Below, piece by piece: positions 5,666-22,298 of a DNA stretch of 64,000 nt. The notes below the pieces were generated by a model. The model did not search any database, had not been told where the DNA came from, and was given only the letters and a program-made list of their open reading frames with translations. The DNA is from Bacteroidota bacterium. Its GTDB lineage: Bacteria; Bacteroidota; Bacteroidia; NS11-12g; UBA9320. Every line of letters starts with the position of its first letter. Positions within the stretch are counted from its first letter, which is position 1. The translations under genes were made by a program, and so were the position numbers. The stretch covers positions 1 to 64,000 of the forward strand of contig JABIUV010000056.1 of assembly GCA_018700895.1 (NCBI GenBank), given 5' to 3'.

Positions 5666-6535
5666 CTACAACCACGCTATCCCAATGATAAACAGCAACA
5701 TGGCCAACTGCAAGATGCGATGAATGGGCTTAGTGTTATGCTCTATGAGTACAAGCATTATCGTTTTGAGTATTGCAATGGCTCCCAATATGTAAAACAA
5801 CTCAGGCTTAGTATGCACCCACAGGAATACCGCATCTACAATGATACTCGATATCAAGATAACCTGAAAAATACGCTTACTCGTTTCCTGTCCGGCCTTG
5901 GTGGCTATACTCTCGTAGCCGTGCACCACGTCACCTTTTAACCAAATGATTCCTTTGTATATCTCTCGTGCAAAAAGCACAAAAAACAAGTTCATTCCAT
6001 ACAAAAAGAAAGACAGGCTTAACGAGCGAAAGTATATCGTAAGACTAAAAAAGACCAATACCGTAAGGAAACTGGCCGTCAACTCTCTGATGAGCACCAT
6101 CTTACTGAGCTTATGCGAGTAAAACCACAGTAATCCTGCGTAACCTAAGAAGAAGATAAATATTCTCCAACTGGCAAATAAGGCAATACTGAGACCGATA
6201 AAATTGAGTAACAGATAAAAATTGAGCTTAAAACCACGGCTTACCAGATTCTGAAATCGTGTGCGATACGGACGGTTGATGAGGTCTTTTTCTACATCAT
6301 AAAAATTATTGATGATATATCCACCTGCTAAAATAAATGCTGTACTTGCGATGATCAGGTGCACCTTGACCTCGGCTAGGGAATGCCATATATCTTCTTT
6401 AACATTAAAGGCAAATAAAAATGCAATGTACTGAGCCCCTGCAGTGAAGAGTACATTTTTCCATCTTACAGATGAAAGTAAGGCAATAAGCTTTAAGTAT
6501 ACTGAATCGCGTTTTTGGAATCTCTTCGCGTTCAA
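5666..6535 (-). CDS. UbiA-family prenyltransferase
   Basis: A 289-aa polytopic membrane protein with about eight hydrophobic segments. The first Asp-rich motif is NNFYDVEKD (residues ~76-84) and the second is the GDVVHGYES block near residue 200. Both are UbiA-superfamily prenyl-diphosphate/Mg2+ binding sites. Bacteroidota members like this are often annotated as geranylgeranylglycerol-phosphate geranylgeranyltransferase-like; the true acceptor is not clear from sequence. It follows mevalonate kinase by only 10 nt, which ties it to isoprenoid use. The start is TTG 6535 because no ATG or GTG exists before the conserved N-terminal region. Confidence 0.85.
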   Translation of the reverse strand: MNAKRFQKRDSVYLKLIALLSSVRWKNVLFTAGAQYIAFLFAFNVKEDIWHSLAEVKVHLIIASTAFILAGGYIINNFYDVEKDLINRPYRTRFQNLVSRGFKLNFYLLLNFIGLSIALFASWRIFIFFLGYAGLLWFYSHKLSKMVLIRELTASFLTVLVFFSLTIYFRSLSLSFFLYGMNLFFVLFAREIYKGIIWLKGDVVHGYESIATKAGQETSKRIFQVILISSIIVDAVFLWVHTKPELFYILGAIAILKTIMLVLIEHNTKPIHRILQLAMLLFIIGIAWL

Positions 6536-6545
6536 TAGATTGTAA

Positions 6546-7475
6546 TTAGATGCGTTGTACGAGTTCTAGTTCGTAGCCCTTGAGCTGCTCTTGGGCATTG
6601 GCATAGTCGCGTGTAAAGCCGAGTATATAACCACCGCCACCGCTACCACATAGTTTGAGGTAGTAATCACCCGTTTCTATTCCTTGCTTCCACACATCTT
6701 TGAAACCTTCCGGTATCATTGGACTAAAATTTTGGAGTAGCAAAGCCGACAGGTGCTTTAGGTTGCCAAATAGCGGATTAAAATCTCCTTTGAGGAAAGA
6801 CTTAATACACTCATCGTTGTATTTTTTGAGCTCAGTTTTCATCATCTTACGGAAACCTTGCTCTTTCATTTTTTCCATAAAAATCTGCACCATCGGCTGG
6901 GTTTCTCCGGGAGTCTGTGTATTGAGTAAGAAGATAGCTCCTTTACTCTCAGCTGTTTCTTGTGGGAGACCTACCGTGTCTAGCTCTTCTTTTGACTTAA
7001 TCACTACAGGAAGATTGAGGTAACAAATCAATGGGTCTAGTCCGGAGCTTTTGCCGTGGAAATGAGATTCCATCTGCCCAAAAATGGCTTTCAACTTCGA
7101 CAACTCTCCTTTATTGATGTTTTCGGAATCTATCTTATCTACCGCATATTTATCATAAATAGCTGCTACTAGTGCACCGCTACTCCCCACGCCAAATCCC
7201 TGAGGAATAGACGAATCGAAGGCGATACCCGATTGGATGTCTTTTTTGAATGCTGCTAAATCTAGCTTAGCAACAGCCTCTCCACTTACTTCTAAATATG
7301 AAAGGTAGGTGAAGTATGTACGCAAATGCTCATTAGAATCAGAGTACTTATCCTCGGCAAAGTGAAACTTGCCCTTGTAAAAATTATACGGAATAGATAG
7401 CCCCATAGCATCTTGGATAATGCCATACTCTCCGAATAGAAGTATCTTACTGTAGAAAAGTGATTCTCTTATCAT
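6546..7475 (-). CDS. mevalonate kinase (GHMP family)
   Basis: Phosphorylates mevalonate to 5-phosphomevalonate. The 309-aa protein starts SLFYSKILLFGEYG, matching GHMP motif 1. Motif 2 is PQGFGVGSSGALVAA (near residue 105) and motif 3 is KLCGSGGGGYILG near the C-terminus. The start is ATG 7475; the longer frame (to 7526) runs through a TACCTTCG -7 box at 7493-7500 and adds a non-conserved leader. It lies in a minus-strand run: mvaD, a 179-aa membrane protein, this gene, then a UbiA prenyltransferase. Mevalonate kinase is favoured over phosphomevalonate kinase by the FGEYG N-terminus and by its similarity to Bacteroidota mevalonate kinases. Confidence 0.9.
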   Translation of the reverse strand: MIRESLFYSKILLFGEYGIIQDAMGLSIPYNFYKGKFHFAEDKYSDSNEHLRTYFTYLSYLEVSGEAVAKLDLAAFKKDIQSGIAFDSSIPQGFGVGSSGALVAAIYDKYAVDKIDSENINKGELSKLKAIFGQMESHFHGKSSGLDPLICYLNLPVVIKSKEELDTVGLPQETAESKGAIFLLNTQTPGETQPMVQIFMEKMKEQGFRKMMKTELKKYNDECIKSFLKGDFNPLFGNLKHLSALLLQNFSPMIPEGFKDVWKQGIETGDYYLKLCGSGGGGYILGFTRDYANAQEQLKGYELELVQRI

Positions 7476-7492
7476 TGGTATTAATGGTAGTA

Positions 7493-7500
7493 CGAAGGTA
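7493..7500 (-). promoter_or_regulatory. -7 box of mevalonate kinase
   Basis: TACCTTCG on the minus strand, a TAnnTTCG variant, lies 17 nt before ATG 7475. It suggests a promoter internal to the mvaD-mvk-ubiA operon. Confidence 0.45.
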
Positions 7501-7623
7501 ACAAATTTTGTATTTGTATTCTTCAAGATATAAACGGTGCTAGTAGGTGTTTGGTTTTGGTGGTAGTGAATTAGTGGGTTGGGGGATTAGGTGATTTGTT
7601 AATTCTTCAGTGATGCTACGGAT

Positions 7624-8176: not shown

Positions 8177-9208
8177 CTAAATCACCTTCTCCGCTCCTGC
8201 TCCCACTTCATCGTGAATATACGCTCCGTTTTCGCAGTATTGGGCGAGTTCTTCTTCTATAAAAGCTTGGGCTGCAGCTTTGTCGGCTTGTGGATAGAGA
8301 AAATGCACGTTGGCCCCTGCGTCTAGCGTGAAACACCATTTTACTCCGTCTTTTTCTCTTTTGGCCCAGATAGCTTCTAGCACTTGTAGCGTCTCTGGTT
8401 TCATGAGTATGAAATACGGATTACTGCTCATCATTAGGCTGTGCAGTGTGAGTGCTTCGCTCTCTACCAAGGTGATAAACGCGTCTAAATCTCCTGATTT
8501 TAAGATAGCGTTGAGCTTGGTCATATTATCCTGTGCCTGTGTGAAGCGTGCTGGAGCATACGGATTATCGTCTATGAGTCCGTGGCCCACGGTGCTGCTT
8601 ACGGTCTTTTGGCCTTTGTGTACGAGGAGTATCGTGTCACAATAGTCTTTGAATACATCTGCCACGTCTGAATACGGAATAGCAAAATTGTCGCTACTTC
8701 CTGCAAAATCGGGATGCTCTCCCCACTCACCCATAGGGCCGTATATAGATCTACTGGCACTACCGCTGCCCAGTCTTGCCAGTTCGGAGGCAGTTTCTTT
8801 GAATTTATCTTCTGTAAGTAACCCTTTTTCCATAGCTATATCACAGATGCACAATGCCAATGCACTCATACCACTCGCACTGCTGGCTATGCCGCTGCTG
8901 TGCGGAAAACTATTGCTCGTATTTATCGTATACTTCCCTCTGAGTACAAATGGGAATACCCCCGATATACGTTTTAGAAACTGCTCAATCTTGGGCACAA
9001 AGCTGGGTTCATTTTCTCCCTCTAGGAGTACGCTTATCTCGAGCGACTCCTGTTCTTCGTAGGTCAACTGAGTGCTTGTGGCACAATTATTTAAAGTAAA
9101 ACTAATGCTCGCGTTGCTGGGTATCTGAGTGGCATTCGGCTTTTTGCCCCAATATTTTACAAGTGCTATGTTACTCGGACTTTTCCAAGCGGTAGTATAC
9201 GTACTCAT
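8177..9208 (-). CDS. mvaD: diphosphomevalonate decarboxylase
   Basis: Catalyses ATP-dependent decarboxylation of diphosphomevalonate to isopentenyl diphosphate. The 343-aa protein starts MSTYTTAWKSPSNIALVKYWGK, whose SNIALVKYWGK block is diagnostic. SSASGMSALA (GHMP motif 2), SRSIYGPMGEW and the TLDAGANVH block near the C-terminus follow. The catalytic Asp is in the TLDAGAN segment. The start is ATG 9208; the longer frame would overlap a strong promoter (TACCTTTG 9225-9232, TTTG 9251-9254). It is the first gene of the minus-strand isoprenoid operon. Confidence 0.95.
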   Translation of the reverse strand: MSTYTTAWKSPSNIALVKYWGKKPNATQIPSNASISFTLNNCATSTQLTYEEQESLEISVLLEGENEPSFVPKIEQFLKRISGVFPFVLRGKYTINTSNSFPHSSGIASSASGMSALALCICDIAMEKGLLTEDKFKETASELARLGSGSASRSIYGPMGEWGEHPDFAGSSDNFAIPYSDVADVFKDYCDTILLVHKGQKTVSSTVGHGLIDDNPYAPARFTQAQDNMTKLNAILKSGDLDAFITLVESEALTLHSLMMSSNPYFILMKPETLQVLEAIWAKREKDGVKWCFTLDAGANVHFLYPQADKAAAQAFIEEELAQYCENGAYIHDEVGAGAEKVI

Positions 9209-9224
9209 CTGTTTATAGAATGAA

Positions 9225-9254
9225 CAAAGGTAAACCCTGATTGGATTATACAAA
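9225..9254 (-). promoter_or_regulatory. promoter of mvaD operon
   Basis: Full Bacteroidota promoter on the minus strand: -33 TTTG (9251-9254), 18-nt spacer, -7 TACCTTTG (9225-9232). The ATG is 16 nt downstream, so the leader is about 10-12 nt. The rest of the 217-bp gap to gatB holds only the gatB -7 box. Confidence 0.75.
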
Positions 9255-17453: not shown

Positions 17454-18458
17454 TTGGGACACACACAAACATCCGACCGCAAAAAGGACCACATCGAACT
17501 CGCTTTTGAGTCGGTGGTTGCCGATCAAGACGAACGCTTTTACTACGAGCCCCTTTTCAGCGGGCATCCACAAGGTGGCTTAACTCCTGTGCAATTTGCA
17601 GGCAAAGCAATGAAAGCACCCCTTTGGGTAAGCAGTATGACAGGCGGCACAAAGGAAGCTGGCATTATCAATAAAAATCTCGCCAAAGCCTGCGGACAAT
17701 TTGGACTAGGGATGGGATTAGGGAGTTGCCGTATCATTCTAAAAGACGATGAGTACTTGCCTGATTTTCAGCTCCGCAAAGAGATGGGCAACTATCCGCT
17801 GTATGCCAACTTAGGGGTAGCACAGTTAGAAGAACTTTTTGACGAAGGTCAAGAAAAACTGATAGGCGAACTGGTAAAACGTACCGAAGCCGACGGACTC
17901 ATCATTCACGTAAATCCACTCCAAGAGTGGCTGCAGCCTGAAGGTGATGTATTCAAGCAATCGCCATTAGAAATCATAAAAAGAACACTTGACTTAGATC
18001 TAAAAATCATCGTAAAAGAAGTAGGTCAGGGATTTGGGCCAGAGAGTTTAAAAGCATTGATGCAGTTGCCATTGGCAGCTATAGATTTTGGTGCACACGG
18101 CGGAACTAATTTCAGCAAACTAGAAATGCATCGCAGTGATACTATGCGTCACGAGGCTTATGATAAGGTAGCCTCTTGGGGACACAGTGCAGAGCAAATG
18201 GTCGGATTTTACAATTGTCTAAAGGAAGAACTAGGCGACCAAAATCAGAACGCAGACATACTCATAAGCGGTGGCGTACGCGACTTTATGGACGGATATT
18301 ATCATACCGAGCGAATCAATGCTAATGCTATTTACGGACAAGCATCTGCTTTCCTCAAACACGCACGAGGCAGCTATGCAGAGTTGGAGGAGTATGTGGA
18401 GTTGCAGGTAAAAGGACTTCAATTGGCACAAACATTTTTAACGCTTAAAGAAAAATAG
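17454..18458 (+). CDS. fni: isopentenyl-diphosphate delta-isomerase type 2
   Basis: FMN/NADPH-dependent isomerase interconverting IPP and DMAPP. The 334-aa TIM-barrel has the N-terminal signature DRKKDHIELA, LWVSSMTGGTKEAG, GMGLGSCR, the IIHVNPLQEWLQPEGD active-site block, KEVGQGFG and the C-terminal GGVRDFMDG FMN-binding segment. The type 2 family is distinct from the Nudix type 1 enzyme. No ATG or GTG exists before the conserved DRKKDH; the only usable start is TTG 17454. Candidate -7 boxes TATTTTCG (17441-17448) and CACCTTTG (17449-17456) are so close that the mRNA must be leaderless or begin inside the N-terminus. Confidence 0.95.
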   Translation: MGHTQTSDRKKDHIELAFESVVADQDERFYYEPLFSGHPQGGLTPVQFAGKAMKAPLWVSSMTGGTKEAGIINKNLAKACGQFGLGMGLGSCRIILKDDEYLPDFQLRKEMGNYPLYANLGVAQLEELFDEGQEKLIGELVKRTEADGLIIHVNPLQEWLQPEGDVFKQSPLEIIKRTLDLDLKIIVKEVGQGFGPESLKALMQLPLAAIDFGAHGGTNFSKLEMHRSDTMRHEAYDKVASWGHSAEQMVGFYNCLKEELGDQNQNADILISGGVRDFMDGYYHTERINANAIYGQASAFLKHARGSYAELEEYVELQVKGLQLAQTFLTLKEK

Positions 18459-18646: not shown

Positions 18647-19966
18647 ATGATAAAAGGATTCAGCAAACTAACCAAAGCCGCCAAAATAGAATGGCTCATA
18701 GCAAACTACTTCAATGGAGAAGGAGCAGCACGCGAAACACTCGAAAACTACTGGCACTCAGATGCTAAGTTGCAGAAACTTCACGATGAGTTTATAGAAA
18801 ACACGATTACTAATTTCTATATGCCGATGGGCGTAGCCCCAAATTTCCTGATCAATGGGAAAGAGTATGCCGTACCTATGGTGACAGAGGAAAGTTCTGT
18901 AGTAGCGGCAGCGGCCAAATCTGCCAGTTTTTGGGCGAGTAAAGGCGGTTTTAAAGCTACGGTAAAAAGTACCACCAAAGTTGGTCACGTTCACTTTATG
19001 TGGAAGGGTGAAGAGAAACAAGCTCTTGCTGATTTTGTGCAGAGCATCAACGACAAGTTCTACACCGAAACCGAAGGAATTACCAAAAACATGCGAAAGC
19101 GTGGCGGTGGTATCCTCAGCATAGACCTCGTAGATAAATGTGAAGATGTGCCCCACTACTATCAGCTGCACGCAGAGTTCGAAACGTGCGATAGTATGGG
19201 TGCCAATTTCATCAATTCATGTTTAGAAAAATTTGCAGATGTACTCAAGGCAGAAATTGCAAATTCGGCACTCAACCCAAATGAGGTAGAAGTCGTGATG
19301 TGCATCTTGAGCAACTACACGCCCGACTGTTTGGTACGCGTAGAGGTAAGTTGCCCCATAGAACAAATGGTGGAAGGTACAGATATGTCGCCACAGGCAT
19401 TTGCAGAGCGATTTACTACAGCAGTACGTATAGCCGAAACGCAGCCATACCGAGCCGTAACCCATAACAAAGGGATAATGAACGGTATCGATTCTGTAAT
19501 ACTAGCCACGGGAAATGATTTTAGAGCTATAGAAGCAGGAGCACATGCGTATGCGAGTAAGGACGGACAGTACACCAGTCTTACCCACGCAGATATGAGC
19601 GACGGACAGTTTAAATTTTGGATAGAAGTACCACTCGCACTAGGTACAGTAGGCGGTATCACGGGCTTGCACCCTATGGTAAAGTTTGCTCACCAGCTCA
19701 TGGGCAACCCCAATGCGGCAGAACTCATGATGATAAGTGCAGCAGTAGGCTTAGCACAAAACTTCTCTGCATTACGTAGTCTTACCACCACGGGAATACA
19801 ACAAGGCCATATGAAAATGCACCTGCTCAATATCCTAAATCAACTAGAAGCAACGGAGGAGGAAAAGAAAACTATTGTACAACACTTCATCAAAAACACA
19901 CCACACCACGCTGAGGTAGTAGAAGCCTTTAAGAAAGTGCGAGGCGGGGAGGTGCTGGGAGGTTAA
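18647..19966 (+). CDS. mvaA: class II hydroxymethylglutaryl-CoA reductase
   Basis: Reduces HMG-CoA to mevalonate, the committed step of the pathway. The 439-aa protein has the class II (bacterial) signature, starting KGFSKLTKAAKIEWL, then PMGVAPNFLINGKEYAVPMV, EESSVVAAA with the catalytic Glu, and GTVGGITGLHPM. Class II enzymes can use NADH or NADPH and often run degradatively, but the pathway genes nearby make a biosynthetic role here likely. The start is ATG 18647. It follows fni in the same direction and precedes two lipoproteins and the GYDIA kinase. Confidence 0.95.
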   Translation: MIKGFSKLTKAAKIEWLIANYFNGEGAARETLENYWHSDAKLQKLHDEFIENTITNFYMPMGVAPNFLINGKEYAVPMVTEESSVVAAAAKSASFWASKGGFKATVKSTTKVGHVHFMWKGEEKQALADFVQSINDKFYTETEGITKNMRKRGGGILSIDLVDKCEDVPHYYQLHAEFETCDSMGANFINSCLEKFADVLKAEIANSALNPNEVEVVMCILSNYTPDCLVRVEVSCPIEQMVEGTDMSPQAFAERFTTAVRIAETQPYRAVTHNKGIMNGIDSVILATGNDFRAIEAGAHAYASKDGQYTSLTHADMSDGQFKFWIEVPLALGTVGGITGLHPMVKFAHQLMGNPNAAELMMISAAVGLAQNFSALRSLTTTGIQQGHMKMHLLNILNQLEATEEEKKTIVQHFIKNTPHHAEVVEAFKKVRGGEVLGG

Positions 19967-20176: not shown

Positions 20177-20758
20177 GTGAAACGAAACATACTTTTACTA
20201 TTTGGATTGATAGGTCTAGTGCTTCTAGAATGGGGGTGTGTCCCTTCGTGTGACGATGCTGATGAATATGATGTTAAACTAAATGAGATACTTTCTAGTG
20301 CTGGTTACATTGATAGTATCGAAGGTGGATTTGTTACAGCTGGCTTAAGAGATACGATATTGTCTAGGCAGTTTAGAATATCTATAGGGTTTAAATCTGT
20401 TTTGGCTCGCCTATATCAAGGCAGTTCTATGCTTTATGCAAATGATTGTGGTGCTGGACCTGTTTATAGAACTTACATTGATTCCGTTAAAATTTTTGAA
20501 GTTCTTGAAGAACAGTTGGTAGATGTTAGTTCTTCATTTGGTTTTGAAAACAAAAACAATGAAAAAGTAGAATGGAGTGAGACAACTCTCTTCATCTCTG
20601 AAATAAATGAAGCGATGGAATTTGGTCTTAATTATGGGCAGTTGTGCCTGTCATTACCCGTCTCAATGGCTGCAAGTAGACAATACTGCATAAAGATTTT
20701 CGACACAGAAGGCAATATCTTCGAAAGTACCACAGACCCCATCATTATCACACCCTAA
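20177..20758 (+). CDS. lipoprotein, paralogous signal region
   Basis: A 193-aa lipoprotein: the signal peptide NILLLFGLIGLVLLEWGC places Cys21 as the lipobox Cys, and a second motif CVPSC follows. The mature part is acidic with Cys at NDCGAG, LCLSL and QYCIKI. Function unknown. The start is GTG 20177, with an AAAGGA motif just upstream. The first 39 bases are almost identical to those of the next gene, while the mature domains differ, which suggests gene conversion or duplication of the leader. Both proteins end in a ...IITP / ...IIP strand. Confidence 0.75.
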   Translation: MKRNILLLFGLIGLVLLEWGCVPSCDDADEYDVKLNEILSSAGYIDSIEGGFVTAGLRDTILSRQFRISIGFKSVLARLYQGSSMLYANDCGAGPVYRTYIDSVKIFEVLEEQLVDVSSSFGFENKNNEKVEWSETTLFISEINEAMEFGLNYGQLCLSLPVSMAASRQYCIKIFDTEGNIFESTTDPIIITP

Positions 20759-20787: not shown

Positions 20788-21318
20788 ATGAAACGAAACA
20801 TACTTTTACTTTTTGGATTGATAGGACTTGTGGCCTTAGAATATGGATGCAAGGAAGAACCTATATCCTGCGGAGGCTCTAGCGAGATGCGGGTTACGGG
20901 CATTCAGGAGTTACAATACTTTTCACTAGACTCCAATAATCAGCTTTCCGCCTTGGACCAAGATGAGGCTCCCTATGATAAAATAGTATACCGCGTGGTG
21001 ATGGACTGGGAAAGAATTGCAAGCATACACTACAACAACTACGCTGCATACGCATCCATAGCACCCTACACCTATTGGAAACCGAAAGAAATCATCATTT
21101 TAGATAACGAAGTAGATGTAACAGACCAGTTTAGTATACTCGGATATTCACGTATATCAGATTTTATTGACGACAGCCCATTTCAAGGTGGTCAGTACTT
21201 ACACTTTACGATGCTCCAAGCTCCAGAAGATTCTGCTGAAAAGACCTATAAGTTCACCATCGTAGAAAGTGACACGACCTATAGTATTCTGAGTAAACCT
21301 CTAAGCATAATACCATAA
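20788..21318 (+). CDS. lipoprotein, paralogue of the preceding gene
   Basis: A 176-aa lipoprotein: MKRNILLLFGLIGLVALEYGC with Cys21 as the lipobox Cys. The mature domain is different in sequence from the upstream protein but shares the near-identical signal region and a similar C-terminal SKPLSIIP strand. It is rich in aromatic residues and Tyr/Asn (around NNYAAYASIAPYTY). Function unknown. It lies 29 nt after the previous gene and 47 nt before the GYDIA kinase, so all three may be co-transcribed. Confidence 0.75.
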   Translation: MKRNILLLFGLIGLVALEYGCKEEPISCGGSSEMRVTGIQELQYFSLDSNNQLSALDQDEAPYDKIVYRVVMDWERIASIHYNNYAAYASIAPYTYWKPKEIIILDNEVDVTDQFSILGYSRISDFIDDSPFQGGQYLHFTMLQAPEDSAEKTYKFTIVESDTTYSILSKPLSIIP

Positions 21319-21365: not shown

Positions 21366-22298
21366 GTGCAATCCTTCTTTTCACACGGCAAATTATTAAT
21401 CACTGGCGAATATGTGGTACTAGATGGAGCATTATCTCTTGCTATTCCTACCAAGTACGGTCAGCGTATGGAGGTGGAATTTCGCGAAAGCGATAGCGAT
21501 AACACACTCACGTGGTACAGTATAGATAGTGACGGCGAGACGTGGTACCGCGAGGAATTTCTAATAAAAGAATCAGGAACTGAGCTACCTCGAAGTGTTG
21601 GGCTACACCCTACGGAGCTTTGCAATATCAATACAGTAAGCGATGCCTTGGTCAATATACTGAATAAAGCTTGTGAGGGCAATCCGTGGTTCTTGGAGGG
21701 TGGTAGTTACACCGTGCGTACCTACTTAGACTTTCCCAATAACTGGGGGCTAGGCAGCAGCAGTACACTCATTTGCAATATCGCCAAGTGGGCACAAGTA
21801 GATGCTTTTGAGCTCTCCGAAGCGAGCTTTGGTGGTAGTGGATACGATATTGCTGTGGGTATGATGGGTGGTGATATTCTGTACCGAAGTTCGGAGATGT
21901 GGGAAGGATATGTGTATCAGCCCGCGTTTAGAAATCAATTATATTTCGTGCATCTTAATCAAAAGCAAAATAGTAGAGAAGGAATAGCAACCTATCGAAG
22001 CAAGCCTAAGGATAATAAGGCAATAGCACGTATATCTGAACTTACAGAGGAACTCATCCAATGTAATGATTTTGGTGTTTTTCAACGGCTAGTTAGTGAG
22101 CACGAAACTATTATCGCTTCTATGATTGATATGCCCACTGTGAAAGAAAAGCATTTCCCAGATTATCCATTTGCTATCAAGAGCCTAGGTGCGTGGGGCG
22201 GAGATTTTATACTCGCTTGTGGTGACGAATCTACACCGCAATATTTTAAAGACAAGGGGTTTAAAACCGTGCTGTCTTACAATGATTTGATAAAGTAA
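21366..22298 (+). CDS. GYDIA-family GHMP kinase, probable phosphomevalonate kinase
   Basis: A 310-aa GHMP kinase. Motif 1 is FFSHGKLLITGEYVVLDGA (residues 4-22), motif 2 is NNWGLGSSSTLI, and motif 3 is LGAWGGDFILACG. The family name comes from the GSGYDIAVGM block, which is present. Mevalonate kinase and diphosphomevalonate decarboxylase are accounted for elsewhere in the window, and no classical phosphomevalonate kinase is visible, so this gene is a good candidate for that step. That assignment is inference from context. The start is GTG 21366 with a -7 box 4 nt upstream. It lies downstream of fni, mvaA and two lipoproteins. Confidence 0.85.
   Translation: MQSFFSHGKLLITGEYVVLDGALSLAIPTKYGQRMEVEFRESDSDNTLTWYSIDSDGETWYREEFLIKESGTELPRSVGLHPTELCNINTVSDALVNILNKACEGNPWFLEGGSYTVRTYLDFPNNWGLGSSSTLICNIAKWAQVDAFELSEASFGGSGYDIAVGMMGGDILYRSSEMWEGYVYQPAFRNQLYFVHLNQKQNSREGIATYRSKPKDNKAIARISELTEELIQCNDFGVFQRLVSEHETIIASMIDMPTVKEKHFPDYPFAIKSLGAWGGDFILACGDESTPQYFKDKGFKTVLSYNDLIK

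Follow-up and report, generated by a model that had tools for sequence, protein, structure and literature searches.

Among the closest described counterparts of the kinase family examined here is the bacterial phosphomevalonate kinase (PMK) captured by the TIGR01220 model and represented by the structures 1k47/3gon (S. pneumoniae) and 3k17 (Listeria). Like this enzyme, the GYDIA family displays a GHMP fold, motifs of the GSxxD[IL]A and KxSG[AS]GGGD type and a place in the mevalonate (MVA) gene cluster, and the step that it is proposed to fill is the same. The two families differ in length (about 310 amino acids in GYDIA versus 335–365), share 17–18 % identity in structural alignment and diverge in a C-terminal motif, which reads GAWGGD in GYDIA but GAGGGD in bacterial PMK. 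TIGR01220 does not recognize GYDIA (no match at E <= 0.001; cut-off 165.7 bits). By both sequence profile and Foldseek, the best solved-structure match of GYDIA is the archaeal mevalonate kinase (MVK) 1kkh, in which, unlike in GYDIA, the GGD motif is missing (the aligned segment reads GAGGGGCVI), and the genome already has an MVK. The animal-type PMVK (PF04275), a member of a different, non-GHMP family, performs the same reaction as that proposed for GYDIA. A 2014 Elizabethkingia genome paper noted that Flavobacteriaceae hold all known MVA enzymes, with PMK seemingly missing, and suggested a non-orthologous GHMP kinase for the step, naming homoserine kinase and galactokinase and not GYDIA (PMC4026382). 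In NCBIfam the GYDIA family is NF040656 (GHMP_GYDIA), a hypothetical equivalog named after its motif without a stated function. We found no open-access paper naming the family as PMK; subscription journals or databases may hold one. From gene, fold, motifs, linkage, co-occurrence and missing alternatives, we consider it very probable that GYDIA is the PMK (EC 2.7.4.2) of the bacterium studied here and of MVA-only Bacteroidota.

The window, by which we mean the whole analysed stretch of 64 000 nucleotides, belongs to contig 15 of a Bacteroidota genome of 2.42 Mb in 59 contigs that is listed as 100 % complete. The GYDIA gene occupies positions 21366–22298 of the forward strand and is an intact ORF of 310 amino acids with a GTG start; an in-frame stop codon lies just 5′ of this GTG, the open frame being 313 amino acids. 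The initial annotation had recognized GHMP motifs and a GSGYDIAVGM block (residues 157–166) in this protein, and these were confirmed by a match to NF040656 over the full length of the profile (positions 1–299 of 299; 364.1 bits, E 5e-109, cut-off 225), which makes it a member of that family. The general Pfam model GHMP_kinases_N nearly misses it, with a marginal 13.6 bits that falls below the cut-off. Membership of the GHMP superfamily is nevertheless supported by the fold model (pLDDT 91.3), by Z scores above 20 to many GHMP kinases and by three motifs. An alignment of 41 members showed that all kinase motifs are retained. The N-terminal GHMP motif FFSHGKLLITGEYVVLDGA, within residues 1–22 (21366–21431, forward strand), has invariant G8, K9, L10 and E15 and corresponds in position to PGKLxxxGEYAVL of PMKs. 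The putative ATP-binding glycine-rich loop WGLGSSSTL (residues 127–135; 21744–21770, forward strand) is near-invariant and is paired by hhalign with GLGSSAA of PMKs. The predicted catalytic loop GSGYDIAVG (residues 157–165; 21834–21860, forward strand) matches GSGxDIA of PMKs and has invariant G157, S158, G159, D161 and A163, of which D161 is proposed, by analogy, as the catalytic Asp. The C-terminal motif KSLGAWGGDF (residues 272–281; 22179–22208, forward strand) is invariant bar one position and matches KPSGAGGGD of PMKs, the MVK equivalent being CGSGGGG. Eighteen further members keep the GSG[YF]D and GAWGGD cores, some of them in the form KWLGAWGGD. No relative of GYDIA was found in viral contigs.

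Five further genes of isoprenoid metabolism that the initial annotation had listed in the window were all recovered by profile matches. Two of them precede GYDIA on its own strand: a type 2 isopentenyl-diphosphate isomerase-like gene (IDI2; 17454–18458; TIGR02151, 197 bits, below cut-off), which stands in the same operon in three loci of relatives (L039–L041), and a class II HMG-CoA reductase (HMGR; 18647–19966; TIGR00532, 274 bits, above cut-off). On the opposite strand, about 8–12 kb further upstream, are a diphosphomevalonate decarboxylase-like gene (MDD; 8177–9253), with MDDs as its top PDB matches and 161 bits to TIGR01240 versus 83 to the phosphomevalonate decarboxylase model, an MVK-like gene (6546–7526; TIGR00549, 69 bits) and a UbiA-family prenyltransferase (5666–6535). 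The last of these follows MVK in loci L038, L041 and L118–L126 except L120, and is thus an operon member in relatives. What is one MVA operon in relatives forms two blocks in the window, IDI2-HMGR-GYDIA and MDD-MVK-UbiA, which are separated by other genes. HMGR and GYDIA, a pair in relatives, are here parted by two short ORFs (20177–20758 and 20788–21318) that had no match in Pfam; their first 20 residues are nearly identical (MKRNILLLFGLIGLV.LE.GC) and resemble a lipoprotein signal.

Searches of the whole genome revealed the same gap in the pathway. The initial annotation had proposed looking in the rest of the genome for a canonical PMK and for HMG-CoA synthase (HMGS). Neither the bacterial (TIGR01220) nor the fungal/ERG8-type (TIGR01219) PMK model had a match at E <= 0.001, and isopentenyl phosphate kinase (IPK) gave nothing above cut-off, its best match being a 20-bit fragment; HMGS was present (C11:14900-15424, 81.7 bits). 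The genome therefore carries HMGS, HMGR, MVK, MDD and type 2 IPP isomerase, and had no match to DXR at E <= 0.001. With the MVA enzymes present and no match to DXR or to either of these PMK models, the simplest reading is that acetyl-CoA is turned into IPP by the classical MVA route, and that the single step without a gene is the one from 5-phosphomevalonate to 5-diphosphomevalonate. GYDIA had been described as the only other GHMP kinase, which holds for the window but not for the genome, where an HddA-like kinase is encoded at G000:C1:3925-4191. This protein was ruled out as PMK, as its sequence looks like that of an HddA-type sugar kinase and has GAGGGG where the GGD motif would stand.

We examined the distribution of four families across the same 277 Bacteroidota genomes. 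GYDIA was found above cut-off in 37, and MDD (E < 1e-40) in exactly 42, namely these 37 and five others (G066, G159, G227, G235 and G266). All five lack GYDIA above cut-off and carry PMK homologues beside HMGR and MDD, the best pieces scoring 90 to 140 bits against TIGR01220, below its cut-off, whilst a PMK homologue is absent from each of the 37 GYDIA genomes. HMGR was detected in 62 of the 277 genomes, including every GYDIA genome. DXR was found in none of the 37 and in all 30 of the other genomes tested, the five PMK genomes included. The latter thus have both MVA and MEP routes. Homologues of the window's MVK showed the reverse pattern (37/37 GYDIA genomes, 0/5 PMK genomes). In the five PMK genomes the HMGR matches lie in open frames of 755–779 amino acids that also match a GHMP profile, which suggests a putative HMGR–mevalonate kinase fusion in G266 and in the genomes of loci L034–L037 (G159, G235, G227 and G066). 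HMGS (PF01154) was detected in 19 of the 37 GYDIA genomes; the rest may carry a divergent synthase or another source of HMG-CoA. The animal-type PMK model PF04275 had no match in the 42 MDD genomes, with a search control likewise matching no genome. The association of GYDIA with MDD had p 6e-41 by Fisher's test (with kinship ignored), but as the 37 GYDIA genomes come from only four families, the independent evolutionary events behind it are few.

These data also bear on the idea that GYDIA has some other pathway-linked role, as a regulator or another small-molecule kinase, and that the step is covered by MVK or MDD or bypassed through phosphomevalonate decarboxylase and IPK. Chloroflexota MDDs reportedly also act as phosphomevalonate decarboxylases (PMC11052028), and the diphosphomevalonate decarboxylase 6n0x is among the top PDB matches of the window's MDD. 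However, IPK was above cut-off in none of the 42 MDD genomes, the window's MDD scores higher with the MDD model than with the phosphomevalonate decarboxylase model, the five MDD genomes without GYDIA have a PMK homologue instead, and GYDIA itself retains all its kinase motifs. We regard such a role as extremely unlikely.

The PMK assignment of GYDIA draws further on its gene neighbourhood. Scanning a single genome for each species returned at least 584 encoded relatives, from which 80 loci were kept, nearly all titled Bacteroidota or unclassified bacteria. In 76 of these 80 loci GYDIA is preceded by a co-directional HMGR, mostly less than 200 bases away. In loci L038–L041 and L110, HMGR, GYDIA, MDD and MVK form a compact co-directional operon (L039 ends inside MDD), in some cases with IDI2 ahead and UbiA behind. 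Of the nine loci sampled from family f50, six (L118, L119, L121, L122, L124 and L126) have the full IDI2-HMGR-GYDIA-MDD-MVK-UbiA arrangement. The other three hold most of it: MDD-MVK is some kb away in L120, L123 ends at a contig edge, and HMGR and IDI2 were not detected in L125. The contig bearing the L110 operon is titled as a Halobacteriovoraceae metagenome-assembled genome rather than Bacteroidota, indicative of a mislabelled bin or of transfer. Of the 37 genomes that carry GYDIA in the phylogenetic profile, 28 have HMGR no more than 2.5 kb away from it, and the other nine keep both genes but at separate places. No other single argument for the assignment is as strong as an operon that holds every enzyme from HMGR to IPP bar PMK, plus one unassigned kinase. 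Within the window's own taxonomic order, a GYDIA homologue was present in 64 of 65 genomes, nearly half of them below the NCBI cut-off. Many of those in family f50 (G310–G340) score 120–223 bits, short of the 225 that NF040656 requires, and the sampled ones stand in the same operon. The NF040656 model therefore misses many GYDIA homologues of this order.

Since both GYDIA and the 6546–7526 kinase are present in all 37 genomes, the phylogenetic profile cannot separate MVK from PMK, and the genomic pattern alone is blind to a swap of labels whereby GYDIA would be the MVK and the 6546–7526 protein the PMK. Such a swap would fit the top PDB match of GYDIA by both profile (1kkh, 3.6e-9) and Foldseek, which is an MVK, as well as the score of the 6546–7526 protein below the TIGR00549 cut-off. 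The motifs of both proteins oppose it. The 6546–7526 family carries HGKSSGLD (HGxSSGLD type) and CGSGGGG, as expected of MVK, and a PDB search with its profile returned nothing but a mevalonate kinase (2x7i). GYDIA has GGSGYDIA and GAWGGD in place of the MVK motifs HGxxSGxD and GxGGGG, and its GSGYDIA and KSLGAWGGD follow the PMK-type patterns GSxxD[IVL]A and K-x-x-G[AS]-x-GGD (GAxGGD and GSGxDxA at their core). The PMK motifs GSxxD[IL]A and KxSG[AS]GGGD were found in four Bacteroidota homologues and in the Listeria and S. pneumoniae proteins. From these motifs we infer which kinase is probably the MVK and which the PMK, and exchanged labels appear very unlikely. Profile comparisons with hhalign gave E-values of 8e-12 for PMKs, 2e-6 for the HddA-like kinase (P-loop region only), 5e-4 for MVK and 9e-3 for MDD, which serve as a guide only and are not strictly comparable, the PMK target being a four-member profile and the others single sequences. 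An HMM built for GYDIA scored three PMKs at 26–29 bits and the fourth at 20.3, HddA at 20.7, MVKs at 10–20 and MDDs below 9. The lone GYDIA sequence returned only weak sugar-kinase matches in the PDB (E 0.02), so that an alignment was needed.

An AlphaFold2 model generated from the 41 GYDIA members (pLDDT 91.3, pTM 0.89) was compared with solved structures. The top Foldseek match was MVK 1kkh, with Listeria 3k17 in seventh place. VIA-align placed 3k17 (Listeria Lin0012) first, with Z 25.3, rmsd 3.0 and 281 aligned residues, followed by 3gon, the S. pneumoniae PMK with phosphomevalonate and AMPPNP (Z 24.8, rmsd 2.8, 273 aligned); MVK 8tfo reached Z 24.7, such that the lead of the PMKs is within the tie margin. 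The predicted structure confirms that GYDIA would adopt a GHMP kinase fold, one compatible with PMK but not proof of it.

In sum, the reading of GYDIA as the kinase that fills the pathway hole, which the initial annotation had reached by inference, is supported as such, since operon structure and phylogenetic profile agree with the PMK-type motifs and with the finding that GYDIA and PMK homologues exclude one another. The substrate, reaction and per-residue roles that we infer for it are as follows. By analogy with known PMKs, MgATP would bind at the WGLGSSST loop, and D161 of GSGYDIA would act as the catalytic base or lie close to it. The gamma-phosphate would then be transferred to 5-phosphomevalonate, and the 5-diphosphomevalonate product would be handed to the MDD of the same pathway. 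More tentatively, and at somewhat less than even odds in our estimation, GYDIA may be a separate PMK lineage of the GHMP superfamily, of independent origin from the bacterial and fungal PMKs already known (non-orthologous displacement), that completes the MVA pathway across several Bacteroidota families; the alternative is a PMK that diverged fast. With at least 584 relatives encoded, GYDIA represents one specific, testable PMK candidate for hundreds of genomes. If the assignment is true, a family named only after its motif could be renamed by annotation pipelines, a new PMK would become available for isoprenoid engineering, and an essential pathway would be closed in a bacterial group that is both large and ecologically important.
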